NCBI GenBank assembly: GCA_026391235.1
Contig: JAPLDV010000068.1
Span: 1 to 7,304 of the forward strand
DNA length: 7,304 bases
Origin: Bacteroidia bacterium
GTDB taxonomy: Bacteria > Bacteroidota > Bacteroidia > Bacteroidales > UBA12481
Reading direction: 5' to 3'
Below the pieces are notes generated by a model that saw only the letters and a program-made list of their open reading frames with translations, searched no databases and was not told the origin of the DNA. Both the position numbers and the translations under genes were made by a program. Shown piece by piece: positions 73 through 6,867 of the stretch; position 1 is the first letter of the stretch; each line of letters starts with the position of its first letter.

Positions 73-450
73 TTAATTCTTAGCATACATAAATCCCTTG
101 TCGACAATATTGATCTGTTCCTTTCCATTTACAATTAACAAGGATTGTCCCTCAACCTTCAGCCTTTTCACTAAATCCTCATTTCCCTTTTCTTCAATGT
201 TCACCGATTTAAAAAAGACATCTCCGCGTTTCACGGCCTCAGGAAAAAATTCATTCACTGCCTGTTCGGCGACCTTTTCAACGGTCTGGCAAGTAACGCA
301 TCGGCGGGTAAAGTGGAAATAGTACACTTCAGTTGGAGTTGTTTTTTTAACCTGTTGGGGAGGTTCGGTTACCTGTGCAGCAGCTGATTCGGTAAACAAG
401 GCTCCTGTCAGAAGAATGCACGTCAGCATAAGAAAACCAAGCTTTTTCAT
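73..450 (-). CDS. arsF: Exported thioredoxin-fold protein, ArsF family, probably C-terminally truncated
   Basis: The 125-residue protein starts with a basic-hydrophobic signal peptide (residues 1 to about 25, likely cut after the Ala run before Gln26), so it should act outside the cytoplasm. The mature part opens with the strand-turn YYFHFTRRCVTC, giving a CxxC pair at C51/C54. A thioredoxin-like pattern follows, ending in a SLLIV strand and a GFMYA segment. This matches what I recall of the ArsF family ("nitrophenyl compound nitroreductase subunit"), linked to reduction of nitroaryl arsenicals together with ArsE and ArsG. It follows the small thioredoxin gene after 11 bases and is the last gene of the minus-strand run. 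Oddity: the TAA after AKN is followed in the same frame by PDKLKAV..., which looks like the missing C-terminal helix. The family assignment is fairly secure; the nitroreductase role is inferred from the family. Confidence 0.8.
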   Translation of the reverse strand: MKKLGFLMLTCILLTGALFTESAAAQVTEPPQQVKKTTPTEVYYFHFTRRCVTCQTVEKVAEQAVNEFFPEAVKRGDVFFKSVNIEEKGNEDLVKRLKVEGQSLLIVNGKEQINIVDKGFMYAKN

Positions 451-461
451 CTGAATTGGAA

Positions 462-695
462 TTATTTGGTTAGTAATTGTTTGATTTCATTCGAGTTAGG
501 CACACGACCTTTTAAAACCACGGTACCATCAACCACCAGGGCCGGAGTGGTCATTATGCCAAAGGACATGATTTCCATAATATCCTCCACTTTGGTTATG
601 ATAGCGTCGAGTTTTAATTCATCAACAACCTCACGGGTTACCTTTTCGAGGGCCTTGCACTTTGCACAGCCTGGTCCTAATACTTTGATTTCCAT
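462..695 (-). CDS. Small thioredoxin-fold redox protein (Thioredoxin_3 / TM0996 type), possibly ArsE-like
   Basis: The product is a 77-residue cytoplasmic protein if read from the ATG at 693-695 (MEIKVLGPGCAKC). An upstream in-frame ATG at 728 would add 11 residues and overlap the preceding arsR stop. I prefer the inner start because this family typically begins directly with the first beta strand, and it leaves a 7-base gap. The CxxC is C10-A-K-C13, and the thioredoxin cis-proline motif is TTPALVVDG, with Pro at about residue 51. It lacks the N-terminal part of classical thioredoxins, as is normal for this family of small disulfide proteins. Such genes often sit beside ArsP/DUF318-type permeases. 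Here it lies between arsR and arsF, so a role as electron donor or arsenical-thiol carrier for ArsF or the permease is likely but inferred. It could correspond to ArsE of the arsEFG system. Confidence 0.85.
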   Translation of the reverse strand: MEIKVLGPGCAKCKALEKVTREVVDELKLDAIITKVEDIMEIMSFGIMTTPALVVDGTVVLKGRVPNSNEIKQLLTK

Positions 696-702
696 AATCT
701 TA

Positions 703-1032
703 TTATTGATTTGAATAACTATCTGCATGAACCGGATTCAGTTGAAAAAGGTCACCGAAGAGTGAACGGGCCTTTTCCAGATTTCCCTTATTGATGCAAT
801 ACCGGATTTTGGGATACTCAATGGTGCCCTGTATCAACCCGGCTGATTTTAACTCCTTCAGGTGCTGGGACAGAGTTGAGCGTGCAATGGGCAGATCTTC
901 GGCCAGATCTCCGCTGAAGCAACAGGATTGCGAGGAGAGCAATTCAATGATGTAAACTCTTACCGGGTGTCCCAGGGCTTTAGCGTATCGGGCCAGCAGC
1001 TCATGATTCTCATTGATCAGATTGTTAACCAT
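703..1032 (-). CDS. arsR: ArsR/SmtB-family metalloid-responsive repressor (second copy, internal)
   Basis: The 109-residue winged-helix repressor has its recognition helix region at about residues 49-67 (IARSTLSQHLKELKSAGLI), followed by a short wing (IEYPKIRYCIN). Candidate As(III)/Sb(III) ligands are C37 and C38 (SSQSCCFSG, at the start of the helix before the HTH) and C79 in the wing strand. There is no ELCVCDLC motif of the classical E. coli type, so sensing probably uses a different cysteine geometry. A perfect inverted repeat at 1048-1065 lies 15 bases upstream of the ATG and is the likely operator, so the gene should repress itself and the two redox genes downstream. It is paralogous to the repressor at 6486-6839: C38 and C79 correspond to C39 and C80 there. 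The family is certain; the inducer is inferred. Confidence 0.93.
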   Translation of the reverse strand: MVNNLINENHELLARYAKALGHPVRVYIIELLSSQSCCFSGDLAEDLPIARSTLSQHLKELKSAGLIQGTIEYPKIRYCINKGNLEKARSLFGDLFQLNPVHADSYSNQ

Positions 1033-1047
1033 GGACGTGTGTTTTAG

Positions 1048-1065
1048 TTTCGTAAAAATACGAAA
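1048..1065 (-). promoter_or_regulatory. Predicted ArsR operator (perfect 7-4-7 inverted repeat)
   Basis: TTTCGTA-AAAA-TACGAAA is a perfect inverted repeat centred 24-25 bases upstream of the arsR start codon at 1032. The same architecture, with the same TCGTA-N4-TACGA core, occurs in front of the other arsR at 6850-6867. Two independent occurrences at the same kind of position make an operator function likely. On the minus strand the repeat covers the proposed -7 promoter element, so binding would block RNA polymerase. It could fold as a hairpin, but no T-run follows it, so a terminator role is unlikely. Confidence 0.75.
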
Positions 1066-1102: not shown

Positions 1103-2122
1103 TTAAAAAATGGCGTTAAAGAGAAAACCGACAATCATAATACCTGCAGATACAATTCCGACAAAGGTCAGTATCAGTGGAATTTTGAGAACCTTACGAA
1201 GGATGATCATTTCAGGGAGTGAGAGACCAATTACGGCCATCATAAAAGCCAGGGCAGTACCCAAGGATGCACCCTTTTCAATAAGAACAGAGACAATCGG
1301 AATAATTCCGGCGGCATTTGAATACAGCGGTACCCCGATAATAATGGACAGGGGTACGCTATACCAGGCTGATTTTCCCATGAGCGCTGCCATGAAATCT
1401 TCCGGAACATAGCCATGGGCTCCGGCGCCAACAGCGATGCCCAGCGCTACATAGAGCCAAACCTTACCAACGATTTCTTTAACAGCCACAAACCCCAAGC
1501 TGATCCTATCGGATAATTTGAGGTGTTCGTCAGACTCGGATGAATCTCCCATTTTGGTTTTATAAACCCAATCTTCAACCCATCTTTCCAACTTTAAACG
1601 GCCAATAATCCATCCGGCGGTAATGGCTATCGTTAAACCGGTGACTACATAAATCACAGCGACCTTCCATCCAAACATCCCGAAAAGAAGAATCACCGCT
1701 ACCTCGTTTATCATTGGTGAGGCGATCAGGAATGAAAAGGTGATCCCCAAAGGTATTCCGGCCTCAACGAATCCCAGGAAAAGAGGAATCGCTGAACAGG
1801 AGCAAAAGGGGGTGACAATTCCCAGAAGGGCTGCCATAACATTGCCTGTAAAAGTCCTTTTTCCGGCTAACGCCTTTCGGGTTCGTTCCGGTGAAAAGAA
1901 GGTCCGCAGGATCCCTACAAAAAACACAATCAGTGCCAGCAGTAAGATAACTTTAGGGAATTCGTAGATAAAAAAACGGATGGCTTCTGTCAGATGCTTA
2001 CCCTTCTCCAGTCCAAAAACATTGTCCGTCAGATAACTGGTAACGGGTTTCAGATAGTGGTAGACAAGAAACCAAACAACCAGAAGACCGGCAACGATCC
2101 AATATTTTTGATTTCGTTTCAA
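1103..2122 (-). CDS. arsP: ArsP-type (DUF318) membrane permease for trivalent organoarsenicals; ArsG-like role possible
   Basis: The product is an integral membrane protein of 339 residues with a hydrophobic segment at 8-22, others at about 57-72, 94-120, 123-170, 212-236 and 255-280, and two C-terminal helices (288-335). A soluble, charged loop at about 176-208 separates the two halves. The diagnostic motif TPFCSCS (residues 104-110, C107 and C109) and the second-half GVPLYSNAAG and LSLPE motifs mark the ArsP_1 permease family. Known members export methylarsenite and trivalent aromatic arsenicals. The start is a TTG at 2120-2122: the frame is open upstream but holds no nearby ATG or GTG, and the protein begins naturally at (M)KRNQKYW. 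It starts 38 bases after acr3 and is followed by the arsR-trx-arsF group, an arrangement like arsEFG in which the permease is ArsG. The exact substrate is inferred. Confidence 0.9.
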   Translation of the reverse strand: MKRNQKYWIVAGLLVVWFLVYHYLKPVTSYLTDNVFGLEKGKHLTEAIRFFIYEFPKVILLLALIVFFVGILRTFFSPERTRKALAGKRTFTGNVMAALLGIVTPFCSCSAIPLFLGFVEAGIPLGITFSFLIASPMINEVAVILLFGMFGWKVAVIYVVTGLTIAITAGWIIGRLKLERWVEDWVYKTKMGDSSESDEHLKLSDRISLGFVAVKEIVGKVWLYVALGIAVGAGAHGYVPEDFMAALMGKSAWYSVPLSIIIGVPLYSNAAGIIPIVSVLIEKGASLGTALAFMMAVIGLSLPEMIILRKVLKIPLILTFVGIVSAGIMIVGFLFNAIF

Positions 2123-2160: not shown

Positions 2161-3201
2161 TTATTTCGCAAATAACTTGCGTTTAAAAAACAGGGCAACA
2201 TTAACCAGGAGTATGAGTACCGGTACCTCAACCAAAGGACCTATTACCGTCGCAAAAGCTGCCTGTGAGTTTATTCCGAATACTGCAATGGCTACGGCAA
2301 TGGCGAGTTCAAAGTCATTGCTGCCAGCGGTGAAAGCCAGGGTAGTTGACTTTTCGTATCCTGCACCCATCCATTTAGCGACGAAAAAGGTAGAGAAAAA
2401 CATCACTGAAAAGTAAATCGTATAAGGGATTGCTACGCGGACCACATCCAGGGGCAATTCAATGATCTTTTCCCCTTTAAGCGAGAACATGACAAAAATG
2501 GTAAAAAGCAGGGCGATGGGTGTCAACCAGGAGGCCTTGGGGATAAACCTGGAAAAGTACCAATCGCTGCCTTTCCATTTACGCAGCAGGAAATTGGTTA
2601 CCAGGCCTGCTGCAAACGGTATTCCAAGATAGATTAAAACGGTTACGGCAATTTCGGATACAGATACCTCTACCGCTGCACCTTTGAGGCCGAAAAGGGG
2701 TGGAAGAAACGTAATGAAAATGTAGGCGTATACCGAGTACAGGAATACCTGGAACAATGCATTAAAGGCTACCAGTCCGGCAGCAAGCTCAGTATCTCCC
2801 CTGGCCAGATCATTCCAGACGAGCACCATGGCAATGCAACGGGCCAAGCCGACAAGAATGACCCCTACCATTAATCCAGGTTGATTATGCAGGAAAATGA
2901 CGGCCAAAAAGAACATGATGAATGGGCCAATGATCCAGTTCTGGGTAAGTGACAGGGTGAGTAACTTCAGGTTTTTGAATACCAATGGCAATTTCTCATA
3001 TTTGACTTTTGCCAATGGAGGATACATCATTAAGACCAGTCCGATAGCAATTGGGATGTTGGTGGTGCCGGAGCTGAGTGAGTTCCAGAATCCCGAAATG
3101 CCCGGCATGAAATATCCAAGGATAACACCGGCAATCATCACCAGGAAGATCCAGAGGGTAAGGTAACGATCAAAGAACGTTAGTTGTTTAGCAGTTCCCA
3201 T
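2161..3201 (-). CDS. acr3: Arsenite efflux permease Acr3
   Basis: The 346-residue inner-membrane protein has about ten hydrophobic segments and belongs to the Acr3 branch of the bile-acid/arsenite transporter superfamily, not the E. coli ArsB family. The signature GLARCIAMV carries the conserved cysteine C122, required for As(III) transport in studied Acr3 proteins. [12 protein letters not shown] contains the conserved glutamate E298. The early [13 protein letters not shown] block is also typical. Length is normal and the ATG at 3199-3201 gives the usual N-terminus. It follows arsC by 21 bases, so arsenite made by ArsC has its exporter directly downstream. No ArsA ATPase gene is present, so export should be driven by the proton motive force, as is usual for Acr3. 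Confidence 0.97.
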
Positions 3202-3222: not shown

Positions 3223-3639
3223 TTACTTGATGTTTTGTTTGTAGAATCCGTAGAATCCTTCCCTGATCTGATCACGTACTCTTCGGTATTCCCCTAAGAT
3301 ATGTTCCCCGGATCCTTTAGCATGAAACGGATCTTCAAAACCAATGTGAAGGCGATGCTTTACTTTTCCAAAGAATGCAGGGCAGGTTTCGTTGGCATTG
3401 TCGCAAACCGTAATAACATAATCCCATTCATCGTTCAGGTATTGATCAACCATTTTAGGCGTATGATGGCTGATGTCGATTCCCAATTCTTTCATGACTA
3501 TAACTGCGTTGGGATTAACCTGTTTTGCAGGTTCCGTACCAGCGGAACAGACAGTAAGACTCTTATCGAAGGATTGTAAAAAACCGTGTGCCATCTGGCT
3601 CCGGCAACTATTCCCGGTGCATAGGATTAAAACTTTCAT
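3223..3639 (-). CDS. arsC: Arsenate reductase ArsC, thioredoxin-coupled (low-molecular-weight phosphatase fold)
   Basis: This 138-residue cytoplasmic enzyme reduces arsenate to arsenite. The N-terminal P-loop CTGNSCRS carries the nucleophile C7 and R13. The redox pair is C79 and C86 (VCDNANETC), and the general-acid loop is FEDP with D103. The C7/C79/C86 triad is the arrangement of the pI258 and Bacillus subtilis ArsC proteins, which pass a disulfide along the three cysteines and are re-reduced by thioredoxin. It is therefore not the glutaredoxin-dependent R773 type. It starts 7 bases after the ABC ATPase gene stops and lies 21 bases before acr3, so it is part of one operon. The general thioredoxin of the cell is the probable reductant; the small thioredoxin at 462-695 is another candidate, without direct evidence. 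Confidence 0.97.
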   Translation of the reverse strand: MKVLILCTGNSCRSQMAHGFLQSFDKSLTVCSAGTEPAKQVNPNAVIVMKELGIDISHHTPKMVDQYLNDEWDYVITVCDNANETCPAFFGKVKHRLHIGFEDPFHAKGSGEHILGEYRRVRDQIREGFYGFYKQNIK

Positions 3640-3646
3640 TTAAAAA

Positions 3647-4348
3647 TTATTGTTTAGCAGTTTGTTGTTGTTCGTCTAACGTTTTTACCAGCTTACCATT
3701 CGATAATCGGATTTTTACAGTTCCGTATTCGGCAGCCATAGGACTATGCGTAACCATGACAACAGTGGTTTTATGGTTCTGATTGATTTCCCTCAGAATG
3801 GTTAAAATCTCTTCTGAGAGATGTGGATCCAAATTTCCGGTAGGTTCATCCGCTAAAAGCAAATCAGGATTATTGGCCAGGGATCTGGCTATTGCTACTC
3901 TTTGTTGCTGGCCGGCTGAAAGCTCCCTGGGATAATGGGTCATTCGATCACCAAGACCAACCCATTCAAGCAATTCAATAGCCCTTGATTTGTTCAAACC
4001 ATTATGGTTGCTTTTAACATTCAATGCTATCATGATGTTTTCCAAAGCAGTCAGATAGGGAACCAGCGCAAAGCTCTGCATAACAAAACCAACGTGCTTG
4101 CTTCTGAATCCGGCCAATTCATTATCGCTGTGAAGATTGATCGTGTCTCCATTATAGGTCATGGTTCCTGAAGTTGGACTTAACAACCCACCCATGATCA
4201 GAAGCAGGGTTGTTTTGCCGGATCCCGAAGCCCCGGTTATGGTAACAAATGCACCTTTGGGAATCCCCAGCGTAAGGTCATCTACCGCGTTTATCGCACC
4301 ATCGTGATGCAGATAGGTCTTTGTCAGATTGTTGATTTGAATTAGCAT
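3647..4348 (-). CDS. ABC transporter ATP-binding protein, MacB/LolD type
   Basis: The 233-residue nucleotide-binding subunit is complete: Walker A GASGSGKT (39-46), Q-loop Q91, signature LSAGQQQR (143-150, a common variant of LSGGQ), Walker B LLLADEPT (163-170, catalytic E168), D-loop GNLD and switch His201. The sequence style is that of the LolD/MacB/FtsE group, which drives mechanotransmission transporters rather than classical channel-type importers. It lies 2 bases after the FtsX-like permease gene and 7 bases before arsC, so it is clearly co-transcribed with both. The C-terminal tail is polar and Gln-rich. The substrate cannot be read from an ATPase; the operon context suggests arsenic or antimony, or thiol stress in the envelope. 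Confidence 0.95.
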   Translation of the reverse strand: MLIQINNLTKTYLHHDGAINAVDDLTLGIPKGAFVTITGASGSGKTTLLLIMGGLLSPTSGTMTYNGDTINLHSDNELAGFRSKHVGFVMQSFALVPYLTALENIMIALNVKSNHNGLNKSRAIELLEWVGLGDRMTHYPRELSAGQQQRVAIARSLANNPDLLLADEPTGNLDPHLSEEILTILREINQNHKTTVVMVTHSPMAAEYGTVKIRLSNGKLVKTLDEQQQTAKQ

Positions 4349-4350
4349 GG

Positions 4351-5568
4351 TCAGCTCTCCTGCATATTTGAGAATGGTTCAATCTTACCGGCCATATATG
4401 CGGGAATTATTGAACCAAGAATTGATATGGATACGGACAGAACGACAGAAACCGCGAGTAATGAATAGATGGCCACCACCTTGATATTGGCAAACTGTGG
4501 TCCTAGCCAGATGGCCAGAACAGTACCAAGCAGGTATCCTATGACTCCTCCTGCCACTCCCATAATCATGGCCTTAAGGATAAAGATCGAGTAAATGTGT
4601 CTTTTATGATAACCGATCATCCTTAAGATGCCTATTTCCCGGTGGCGTTCATTCACATTTGCCCAGATATAGTTGCCAATGGAAATGCTTCCCACAAATA
4701 GTATGATAACCAGGAAGATGATGGATATTTTCTTCATCAAGCGATTGGTCTCTATCTGGGTGGATACAATCTGGTTGATGGTTGTTATCCGCGTATCCGG
4801 CAGGATGTTCCTCAATTTGCCCAACAAACCATCAGAGATGGCATTACAGCAACCCATGATTTCGATCGCACTGATTTGCTCACCGGTACCCAGAAGTTCC
4901 TGAACGGTATGCAGGTTTGCGAATACCCGGTCGTCATCGACGGTTCCCGTTTCCGGCAGCACCTTAACCACGGTAAATGATTTTTCCATGATTGATAAAC
5001 TACTGTTTTCCTTTGCGTTAAGCCTGAGTGCGACAGCGGAACCAATAAAGCAGTCATAACCTGCCAGTGTATCGATTCCCTTTCTCTGCAACTTTTCATC
5101 CAGGTATTGTGCGGGCTTTGCTTCGGTTGCCGGGGCACAACTTGCCAGTAACGCTGTGCCGATCAGGCCGCTTTGCTGCCAGATCGGCTTGGAGGCAATT
5201 TCGCTCTTTGGAAGGATACCGGTAAGCACTATGTTTTCATTGCCAATTTTAATCCTGCGGGTCAGTTTTGGCGACATATTGTCCACACCAGGCAGGGTGG
5301 AATTCACGATTTTCTCAACAAAGTCTTCTGGAAAAGTGGGCGCATCTATATCTGAAGAATAGTAATTATCAACGCTCGCTGCCTGAGGCAATACGAGAAT
5401 GTTGGCTCCCAGGTTATCGAGATTGACAGCCACAGCCTTCTCGGAAACCACTGATATGGACCGGATTCCAACAATGACTGCAATACCGAGGGTTATGGCC
5501 AGCAGGCCGGATACGAGCTGTGACTTGCGATGCCAAAGCTCCTTGATTACTAAGTCCTGTAATTTCAT
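4351..5568 (-). CDS. ABC transporter permease, MacB/FtsX type, with cysteines in the periplasmic domain
   Basis: The 405-residue protein has MacB-family topology: one N-terminal transmembrane helix (about 18-37), a large extracytoplasmic domain (about 38-280), and three C-terminal helices (about 281-303, 326-357, 367-391) forming the FtsX domain. The cytoplasmic NERHREIGILRMIGYHKRHI loop after the second helix is the usual ATPase-coupling segment. With one permease and one ATPase gene, a homodimeric transporter is expected. The extracytoplasmic domain carries C144, C173 and an adjacent pair C240/C241 (EIMGCCNAI), unusual for a MacB-like domain and potentially thiol- or metalloid-reactive. It starts 23 bases after the cysteine-tailed thioredoxin-like gene and ends 2 bases before its ATPase gene. 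No MFP adaptor or TolC-like gene is next to it, unlike true MacAB-TolC systems. Function in arsenic handling is an inference from position. Confidence 0.9.
   Translation of the reverse strand: MKLQDLVIKELWHRKSQLVSGLLAITLGIAVIVGIRSISVVSEKAVAVNLDNLGANILVLPQAASVDNYYSSDIDAPTFPEDFVEKIVNSTLPGVDNMSPKLTRRIKIGNENIVLTGILPKSEIASKPIWQQSGLIGTALLASCAPATEAKPAQYLDEKLQRKGIDTLAGYDCFIGSAVALRLNAKENSSLSIMEKSFTVVKVLPETGTVDDDRVFANLHTVQELLGTGEQISAIEIMGCCNAISDGLLGKLRNILPDTRITTINQIVSTQIETNRLMKKISIIFLVIILFVGSISIGNYIWANVNERHREIGILRMIGYHKRHIYSIFILKAMIMGVAGGVIGYLLGTVLAIWLGPQFANIKVVAIYSLLAVSVVLSVSISILGSIIPAYMAGKIEPFSNMQES
4355..4361 (-). promoter_or_regulatory. Strong ribosome binding site for the ABC ATPase
   Basis: AGGAGAG lies six bases before the ATG at 4348, inside the last codons of the permease gene. 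It is the clearest Shine-Dalgarno sequence in the window; most other genes here have only A/T-rich leaders. It supports the chosen ATPase start and suggests tightly coupled, roughly balanced synthesis of ATPase and permease. Confidence 0.75.
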
Positions 5569-5591
5569 ATTGATTTACTACCAGTTACTTA

Positions 5592-6446
5592 CTATTTACT
5601 GCATCCGGCCGGTCCGCAACCCGGACCGCAACCTGCCTTGACGGGAGCTGTAGCTGCGGAGGCCAGTTTGGCTGCATCCGGAATACTGGTTATTGAGGTT
5701 CCCGCAACCTGCCCCTGCGTATTAACCACGATGGTTGTGCTTGATATTGCTGACTTGTTAATGCGAAGATTGTTCATTAAGGATTCTTCTTTGTTGTCAT
5801 CCATGTCAACTTCCACCACAGCGCCACTATCCTTCAGCATTTTCACTGCATCCTTACAAATATTGACGACTTCTGTCCTATCCGAAAATGATTTTTTTGA
5901 AAAGACGACGAATACAGGCTTCTTTGCAATAATATAGCCATTTATCTCTTCAAGTTTTGGTGATGGAATTAAGGCTGCCAAAGCCTCAGGAGTGGCTTGC
6001 TGAGCTAGCAGCCCACCGACAACGTAACCTTTGGGGGATATAACCAAAACTAAAGGCAGAGGTGCTCCGGCCAACTGGTAACGGGTGTTTAAGGCTTCGT
6101 TTTCGGCATTTGACCGGTCTAATTTGATCACTACGCTGTTTGGAACCTTTAGTTTGGCGGTGGCAACTGTTTTTTCCAGCTCCGCTAAAGCCGGAACATT
6201 CGGTTCATATACAATAATAAACGCCAACTTTCCGGAACTTTTGGCAGCAGCGATTTCTTCTGCGGTTGAAGGACCTGGAGTTGCTTTAGCCTTGGTTTCA
6301 ATGTTCTTTTTGGCAGGATTGCTTATGGACGACAGATCCTGTGCCACCGCCATTGATCCGGAATTATTCTGCCCGCTGAGTCCCAGGATCAGGCCCATGT
6401 TCAAGAGAAGAATAACTGCTGATTGCGATTTGAAAATTGGTTTCAT
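5592..6446 (-). CDS. Exported tandem thioredoxin-like protein with Cys-rich C-terminal tail (unrecognised family)
   Basis: I do not recognise a named family. The 284-residue protein has a signal peptide (hydrophobic 10-24, likely cut at AVA|Q36), a low-complexity Ala/Lys/Pro linker to about 65, and two similar alpha/beta units at about 70-160 and 170-265. Both read as strand (AFIIVYEP / PVFVVFSK), helix, strand ending in Asp (VVIKLD / VVEVDMD), an N-x-x-L-type helix, then strand-Gly hairpin (SPKGYVVGG / NTQGQVAGT), which fits thioredoxin-like folds. Neither unit has a CxxC at the active-site position, so both look redox-inactive. The cysteines are C197 and a C-terminal tail CGPGCGPAGC (C273, C277, C282), which could bind arsenite or a thiophilic metal. 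It is the first gene after the head repressor and directly precedes the ABC permease, so a periplasmic binding or chaperone role for that transporter is a reasonable guess. Confidence 0.8.
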   Translation of the reverse strand: MKPIFKSQSAVILLLNMGLILGLSGQNNSGSMAVAQDLSSISNPAKKNIETKAKATPGPSTAEEIAAAKSSGKLAFIIVYEPNVPALAELEKTVATAKLKVPNSVVIKLDRSNAENEALNTRYQLAGAPLPLVLVISPKGYVVGGLLAQQATPEALAALIPSPKLEEINGYIIAKKPVFVVFSKKSFSDRTEVVNICKDAVKMLKDSGAVVEVDMDDNKEESLMNNLRINKSAISSTTIVVNTQGQVAGTSITSIPDAAKLASAATAPVKAGCGPGCGPAGCSK

Positions 6447-6849: not shown

Positions 6850-6867
6850 TGTCGTAAACATACGACA
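6850..6867 (-). promoter_or_regulatory. Predicted ArsR operator (perfect 7-4-7 inverted repeat)
   Basis: TGTCGTA-AACA-TACGACA is a perfect inverted repeat 10 bases upstream of the arsR start codon. It overlaps the end of the proposed -7 element and the predicted transcription start. The other arsR has the same 18-bp architecture (1048-1065), differing symmetrically at arm position 2 and in the spacer. The recurrence in front of both repressor genes is the main support. Confidence 0.8.

Follow-up and report, generated by a model that had tools for sequence, protein, structure and literature searches.

What does a three-gene unit built around an ATP-binding cassette (ABC) transporter do inside an arsenic resistance (ars) operon? 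The question is raised by a 7,304-nt stretch of DNA from a Bacteroidia bacterium (assembly GCA_026391235.1, contig JAPLDV010000068.1), referred to here at its full length as the window, in which an exported thioredoxin-like protein ending in CGPGCGPAGC (TrxTail), a MacB/LolE-type permease and a LolD-like ATPase lie between arsR and arsC. A first-pass annotation had described this triad and its tight spacing (23, 2 and 7 bases), and renewed analysis confirmed the description in each of these points. The three genes are:

5592..6446, minus strand: TrxTail, exported, with two thioredoxin-like domains, no CXXC, and a low-confidence C-terminal tail carrying Cys273, Cys277 and Cys282
4351..5568, minus strand: MacB/LolE-type permease, with Cys144, Cys173, Cys240 and Cys241 in the periplasmic domain
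3647..4348, minus strand: LolD-like ABC ATPase, with Walker A GASGSGKT and signature LSAGQ

We propose, at what we judge to be an even chance of being right, that the triad is a periplasmic module of ars operons, found mainly in Bacteroidota, in which an exported As(III)/Sb(III) chaperone is unloaded by a type VII ABC machine.

Relatives of the permease, scanned with one genome per species, yielded 106 stretches, of which the best 80 were kept (the 80 loci, given L-numbers where one must be named). The scan used peptide patterns, one of which includes Cys240-Cys241 of the permease, and linkage was counted by tblastn with gene representatives. The three genes form a conserved unit, as had been anticipated: the triad is complete in 77 of the 80 loci, the permease is adjoined by the ATPase in 80 and by TrxTail in 77, and in the three loci without TrxTail the sequence upstream of the permease is just 932, 258 and 78 bases long. 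The count of ars neighbours suggested by the first-pass annotation is led by Acr3 (52 of 80) and ArsC (45), followed by ArsE (33), ArsP (26), an ArsG-like protein (23), ArsF (22), ArsM (19), ArsA (12) and ArsD (11), and Acr3 shares its strand with the permease in 52 of 52 cases. Where at least 5 kb is available on both sides (40 loci), Acr3 is present in 35 and at least one of Acr3, ArsC, ArsA, ArsM and ArsD in 36. The ArsG, ArsM and ArsD representatives exceed an NCBIfam cut-off; that of ArsA is over the TRC40/ArsA subfamily cut-off and under the ArsA equivalog cut-offs. With ArsP, ArsE, ArsF, ArsG-like and any ArsR match also scored as ars, and with L014, L029, L068, L072, L078 and L079 placed on the ars side by an adjoining ArsR-type gene read by eye, an ars gene or arsR accompanies the unit in 73 of the 80 loci, the conserved linkage expected of an ars operon gene. 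The proposed tie to arsenic holds, since the triad does not lie mostly away from ars genes: just seven loci lack an ars gene or arsR. As background, the number of Acr3 matches ranges from 0 to 3 in 30 host genomes, of which 28 have at least one (over the cut-off in 27) and 19 exactly one, and 24 of the 30 corresponding loci hold Acr3 themselves; ArsB was above its cut-off in two of seven genomes in which Acr3 at the locus was scarce or absent. The triad occurs in records labelled as several phyla, and plasmid sequences gave one remote match at 28.8% identity.

A permease profile built from this first set was also run over whole genomes without peptide patterns. At 471 bits or more it matched 25 genomes in the order of a Paludibacter record (393 searched), 14 in the phylum of a Zixiibacteriota record (132 searched) and 2 in that of a Desulfamplus record (297 searched), where seven others reach only 157 to 170 bits. 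A TrxTail profile found two strong matches (in genomes already seen) and two weak ones among 395 genomes of the Paludibacter record's phylum, and the unit is therefore sparse. The strong permease family supplied 36 loci with short flanks, 24 of which repeat the 80-locus scan; tblastn detected TrxTail in 31 loci of this set, 8 of the 12 new loci among them, and the profile found it in longer stretches of L106 to L108; in the remaining two, L102 and L126, the sequence upstream of the permease extends for 145 and 258 bases. Among 14 longer stretches of this family, three of them repeats, Acr3 is present in 9 and an ars gene or arsR within seven genes in 12; for the 11 new stretches the counts are 7 and 9, the two without being contigs of 7,454 and 5,983 bases. 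A divergent branch (L129, L130 and L131), with a permease 44 to 46% identical, carries Acr3, ArsC, TrxTail, permease and ATPase in all three members. Conservation of the unit across the loci and in the divergent branch rules out chance or artefact. The permeases at 157 to 170 bits (L087 to L094) are 28 to 36% identical; six longer stretches with such low-scoring permeases (L139 to L144) contain no ars gene within seven genes, and their permeases carry two cysteines in the corresponding periplasmic loop. Read by eye, neighbours in three of these six resemble sulfur-transfer, tRNA-thiolation and redox genes. TrxTail and the permease of the divergent branch are separated by an extra gene, whose L130 copy encodes a PF02441 flavoprotein, and ahead of TrxTail is a gene for a small, cysteine-rich exported protein.

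The tail of TrxTail, taken as the last 38 residues and usable in 74 of the 80 loci (six have no usable tail), follows a three-cysteine rule. Tails with three cysteines occur in 71 of the 74 loci, where, by number alone, three are available for one ion; L074 and L075 have two and L065 has four. Two further samples comprised 120 listed TrxTail proteins and 120 listed permeases, and in the former the tail holds three cysteines in 119 and four in one. The rule also holds in 13 of 13 tails from longer profile-found stretches, three of them repeat loci, and in all three members of the divergent branch. By comparison, at least three cysteines fall within the last 35 residues in 113 of 1,211 other mechanically called open reading frames (ORFs) of the loci, many of which are surely not genes. 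Three-cysteine tails nevertheless fall into 11 spacing classes (CC-x7-C, C-x3-C-x4-C, C-x4-C-x6-C and others), and a quick permease tree, with poor support for 29 of its 77 inner branches, requires no fewer than 27 shifts in spacing pattern (two- and four-cysteine patterns included) and two in cysteine number. In the window protein only Cys197 lies outside the tail. Its body is predicted to adopt the thioredoxin fold, all 50 matches listed from a fold search being thioredoxins; that no ArsD structure is among those 50 carries no weight either way. The tail, of low confidence in the predicted model, was taken as flexible. A redox-active thioredoxin was rejected, given the missing CXXC active site. 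No Pfam, NCBIfam or PHROG family reached its cut-off with the window protein, nor did any NCBIfam family with four relatives tried; PDB sequences contained no relative at E 0.01, and PF13848 is precomputed for some relatives. Two observations concern ArsD-like features nearby: an exported protein directly upstream of TrxTail in L029 (613-1113), with no Pfam match, has a CGPEAACCGPVG stretch reminiscent of ArsD, and ArsD-like proteins in three loci (L017:5909-6301, L040:631-1023 and L046:5122-5514) bear an extra C-terminal tail with four cysteines (CC...CC) that resembles TrxTail tails.

The permease exceeds the cut-offs of PF02687 and PF12704 and has the attributes of the type VII (MacB-like) ABC superfamily, namely an FtsX domain, a MacB-type periplasmic core, four transmembrane (TM) helices with the periplasmic domain between TM1 and TM2, and its own nucleotide-binding domain (NBD). 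Against NCBIfam it stays under the cut-offs of all 10 models matched, MacB, LolCE and FtsX included, and the ATPase under those of all 25 listed of the 195 models matched; PHROGs gave one weak match to the permease. The folds of the triad are predicted, that of the permease aligning with the similarly organized MacB, LolE and HrtB over 325 to 355 residues (full-length top matches), and the ATPase is separate and LolD-like, as in LolE/HrtB-type systems. Unlike proteins of the MacB/LolE/HrtB type, the triad permease is set in an ars operon and has at least three periplasmic cysteines; all 80 permeases have at least three between TM1 and TM2. Cys144 is present in 78 of the 80, Cys173 in 68, and Cys240 and Cys241 in 80; the corresponding numbers in the 120 listed permeases are 118, 119, 120 and 120. 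A DUF1573 protein often directly follows the ATPase (e.g. L031:11890-12312; offset +2 in 8 loci; 10 loci by tblastn).

For metalloid binding, docking, direction, the ATP-driven step, substrate identity and the fate of the metalloid, we infer the following course. When As(III) is present, ArsR would release the operon. Exported TrxTail would present the three thiolates of its flexible tail, which would suffice to hold a single As(III) or Sb(III) in an S3 site. It would dock with the permease dimer at the periplasmic domain, and the ion could pass there to Cys144, Cys240 and Cys241. ATP hydrolysis by the LolD-like subunit would move the periplasmic domains by MacB-type mechanotransmission, so that the tight thiolate complex would be pulled apart and the metalloid moved off the inner-membrane surface. 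Labour would thereby be divided, with Acr3 clearing the cytoplasm and the ABC machine clearing and recycling the periplasmic scavenger. Published work, cited here and below from excerpts of the papers, offers precedents for two of these steps: MacB spends ATP on periplasmic work, not on substrate passage across the inner membrane (PMC5985334), and AfArsR binds As(III) through three cysteines set in a short, flexible stretch (PMC11212059). The likeness to AfArsR lies in three cysteines within one short stretch, flexible in AfArsR and of low model confidence in TrxTail; AfArsR, however, is a repressor, whereas TrxTail is exported and its tail spacing is variable. Chaperone unloading is the most economical reading because it joins MacB-type periplasmic work, an exported three-thiol tail, permease thiols and the company of arsenite genes. 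As to the substrate, the counts lean to an inorganic trivalent metalloid, because Acr3 and ArsC are the commonest partners and the tail has three thiols where a methylated arsenical needs two; sequence alone cannot separate a thioarsenical, a thiol conjugate and antimonite.

The proposed logic resembles that of ArsD and ArsA, in which As(III) passes from a chaperone to a partner powered by ATP: ArsD, with a three-cysteine site (PMC11212059), is the As(III) chaperone to ArsA, which needs Cys113, 172 and 422 (PMC2963123). We tentatively suggest, with rather less confidence than we place in chaperone unloading itself, that the triad may be the periplasmic counterpart of this pair, an S3-tail chaperone feeding As(III) or Sb(III) to an S3 site on an ATP-driven machine that would strip the ion and expel it beyond the inner membrane, with ArsE, ArsF and ArsG from neighbouring genes supplying periplasmic reducing power so that the thiols stay free. 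The triad differs from ArsD and ArsA in that TrxTail is an exported protein, paired with an ABC transporter instead of a cytoplasmic ArsA. Membership of TrxTail in ArsD was rejected: it matches no ArsD model, and two comparisons gave probabilities of 5% and 1%, the latter from profiles that showed no meaningful alignment.

Several points weigh against chaperone unloading. The invariance of Cys240 and Cys241 in the 80 loci is partly built in by the search pattern, although the profile-found divergent branch, free of patterns, keeps the Cys-Cys pair in three of three; Cys173 is absent in 12 of 80 permeases. The seven loci without an ars gene or arsR are L015, L028, L039, L045, L050, L074 and L075, one of which has less than 1 kb of sequence per side. 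Two of them, L074 and L075, are the loci with two-cysteine tails, and their permeases still have three periplasmic cysteines, that of L074 having lost Cys144 and carrying one cysteine at the place of residue 234. A coupled loss of thiols in L074 and L075 was dropped as an idea, given that all 80 permeases keep at least three. Among 57 arsR genes near the unit, 17 match none of three scored cysteine layouts. Three thiols are also suited to Hg(II), Cu(I) or other soft ions, periplasmic thiols may be prone to oxidation, and the window contains no outer-membrane exit gene.

Other accounts of the same genes must be set against these observations. Envelope protein repair or extraction, raised by the first-pass annotation, stays a rival to metalloid handling, and it takes two forms. 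In a LolCDE-like machine, the permease would extract TrxTail as a metalloid-loaded lipoprotein, or arsenic-damaged lipoproteins, from the inner membrane toward the outer membrane. This is unlikely, given that a lipobox-like motif is found in just 17 of 71 locus homologues of TrxTail and that the window protein has no cysteine near its N-terminus; moreover, the curated cut-offs are missed (LolCE 51 vs 362.45, LolD 214.5 vs 307.75) and a single permease gene stands in place of a LolC-LolE pair. Alternatively, TrxTail might serve in the repair of envelope proteins bridged by arsenic, as a redox or chaperone factor switched by ATP-driven movement, much as EnvC is driven by FtsEX. Type VII systems can indeed act on a periplasmic partner rather than a small substrate, according to the literature as excerpted, and thioredoxin-like proteins (20 loci) and ArsG-like, DsbD-related proteins (23 loci) are frequent neighbours; the window TrxTail, however, has no CXXC, and a set of three thiols whose spacing shifts is a better match to a metalloid site than to a disulfide pair. 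We place this second form slightly below the first.

An efflux pump for another arsenical, such as an organoarsenical or thiol conjugate, in which TrxTail captures the substrate and the substrate crosses the membrane, seems to us no more probable than the LolCDE-like machine. Genes for organoarsenicals are common neighbours (ArsE, ArsP, ArsG-like and ArsF, as counted above), and the Sec-assisted organometallic (SAO) system joins a different ABC transporter type to thiol/selenol proteins for organometals (PMC13188914). Acr3 and ArsC are nonetheless more frequent, and MacB itself, in the excerpt cited above, does not transport its substrate across the inner membrane. The triad also departs from MacAB-TolC in that NBD and permease are separate genes, the MacB equivalog score is 42.1 vs 966, and the ten window genes include neither MacA, nor another adaptor, nor TolC. 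Least probable by far is hitchhiking, in which an unrelated ABC unit would have come by chance into ars islands: such islands do move between species, and the seven loci without ars genes would fit, but Acr3 lies on the same strand in every case, and the unit is kept under several phylum labels, in a divergent branch and beside varied ArsR layouts. Chaperone unloading by a type VII machine is the reading that we retain.

The ten window genes all lie on the minus strand, in the order arsR_B, TrxTail, permease, ATPase, arsC, acr3, ArsP-like, arsR_A, ArsE-family and ArsF-family, with gaps of 39, 23, 2, 7, 21 and 38 bases from arsR_B to the ArsP-like gene; from 6957 the plus strand holds the open start of a further gene. 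Besides the triad, the features are:

6852..6865, no strand assigned: candidate ArsR operator TCGTA-AACA-TACGA, 12 bases upstream of the arsR_B start codon
6486..6839, minus strand: ArsR_B, head repressor (PF01022 1e-12; NF033788 58 bits, cut-off 55)
3223..3639, minus strand: ArsC, arsenate reductase of the low-molecular-weight phosphatase type (PF01451 4.7e-20; TIGR02691 125.7 bits, below the cut-off of 174.3)
2161..3201, minus strand: Acr3 arsenite efflux permease (TIGR00832 420.8 bits, cut-off 282.8)
1103..2122, minus strand: ArsP-like permease (PF03773; under the equivalog cut-offs of SaoE and SO_0444)
1050..1063, no strand assigned: second candidate ArsR operator TCGTA-AAAA-TACGA, 17 bases upstream of the arsR_A start codon
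703..1032, minus strand: ArsR_A, second repressor, with Cys37, Cys38 and Cys79
462..728, minus strand: ArsE-family thioredoxin-like protein (TIGR00412 118.3 bits, cut-off 62)
73..450, minus strand: ArsF-family exported protein (NF040494 91.6 bits, cut-off 60)

With ArsE- and ArsF-family genes at its far end, the island is more composite than the first-pass annotation described. The sequence TCGTA-N4-TACGA occurs twice in the window and in none of 200 shuffles, and the two candidate operators ahead of both arsR start codons therefore suggest two transcription units, one from arsR_B to arsP and the other from arsR_A to arsF and beyond. A shared operator was rejected as a rule for the family, since just 4 of 64 loci with an ArsR ORF have TCGTA-N2-6-TACGA near arsR, and the operator claim is therefore limited to the window.

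Arsenicibacter is a genus of Bacteroidota. In the ArsR of Arsenicibacter rosenii, As(III) needs Cys41, Cys80 and Cys82, and methylarsenite only Cys41 and Cys82 (PMC11868830). ArsR_B has Cys39, Cys80 and Cys82 and so agrees, by numbering and unaligned to the published protein, with the cysteines at about 41, 80 and 82 of an Arsenicibacter-type As(III)-responsive ArsR; ArsR_A lacks the third position of this site, a layout that by analogy would suit a two-coordinate arsenical. The unit accompanies several ArsR layouts: of the 57 arsR genes near it, 11 have the full cysteine triplet, 8 have an LCVC-type motif and 21 combine a cysteine of the N-terminal loop with another in the second region (L068 and L077 by a loose rule).

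Further side observations bear on the surroundings of the unit. The ArsE- and ArsF-family genes lie with a second arsR at 73-1032 of the window, and the ArsG-like, DsbD-related protein frequent in relatives may sit just past the window edge; the trio resembles a thiol relay to the periplasm. Near the unit in 15 of the 80 loci is an exported protein that looks by eye like an outer-membrane barrel (e.g. L022:3632-4600); in 12 of 16 copies its mature chain probably begins with QCC(S/A/T/G)(A/S)GNP. It is often accompanied by a small Ig-like lipoprotein, present in 13 loci, and by a thioredoxin-like protein, present in 20. This barrel-like protein, of which the window holds none, is a possible outer-membrane partner of the ars island.

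How far does the triad depart from what has been described? The closest published concept is the SAO system, in which an ABC transporter has thiol/selenol partners for organometals, among its parts being the thioredoxin-like SaoT and SaoC with its Cys-Cys-COOH end (PMC13188914). According to that excerpt, SAO resembles the triad in belonging to a metal or metalloid operon and in combining an ABC transporter with thioredoxin-like and Cys-ended proteins; it differs in having substrate-binding subunits and selenocysteine. Following the lead of the SaoE match, we considered the triad as an SAO system and rejected it: the ATPase scores 130.1 vs 360 for SaoA and the ArsP-like protein 133.7 vs 325 for SaoE, and TrxTail and the permease have no Sao match. 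A 2015 survey of about 2,500 strains lists five ABC transporters among more than 700 ars-operon transporters (PMC4435449); the words 'MacB' and 'thioredoxin' do not occur in that paper, its excerpts do not describe the triad, and its five ABC transporters may or may not include the triad family. We found no description of the triad in the open-access literature, judged mostly by titles and abstract openings and with subscription papers outside its scope. The triad is a new combination, from a known superfamily and in a known operon type, and its job is probably new.

Arsenic resistance as usually taught is cytoplasmic: sense, reduce, pump. If chaperone unloading is the true reading, a set of environmental bacteria would also run an ATP-powered periplasmic system for trivalent metalloid, which would give type VII ABC machines a new job and arsenic metagenomics a new gene trio to seek, with three tail thiols facing at least three permease thiols as a checkable rule.

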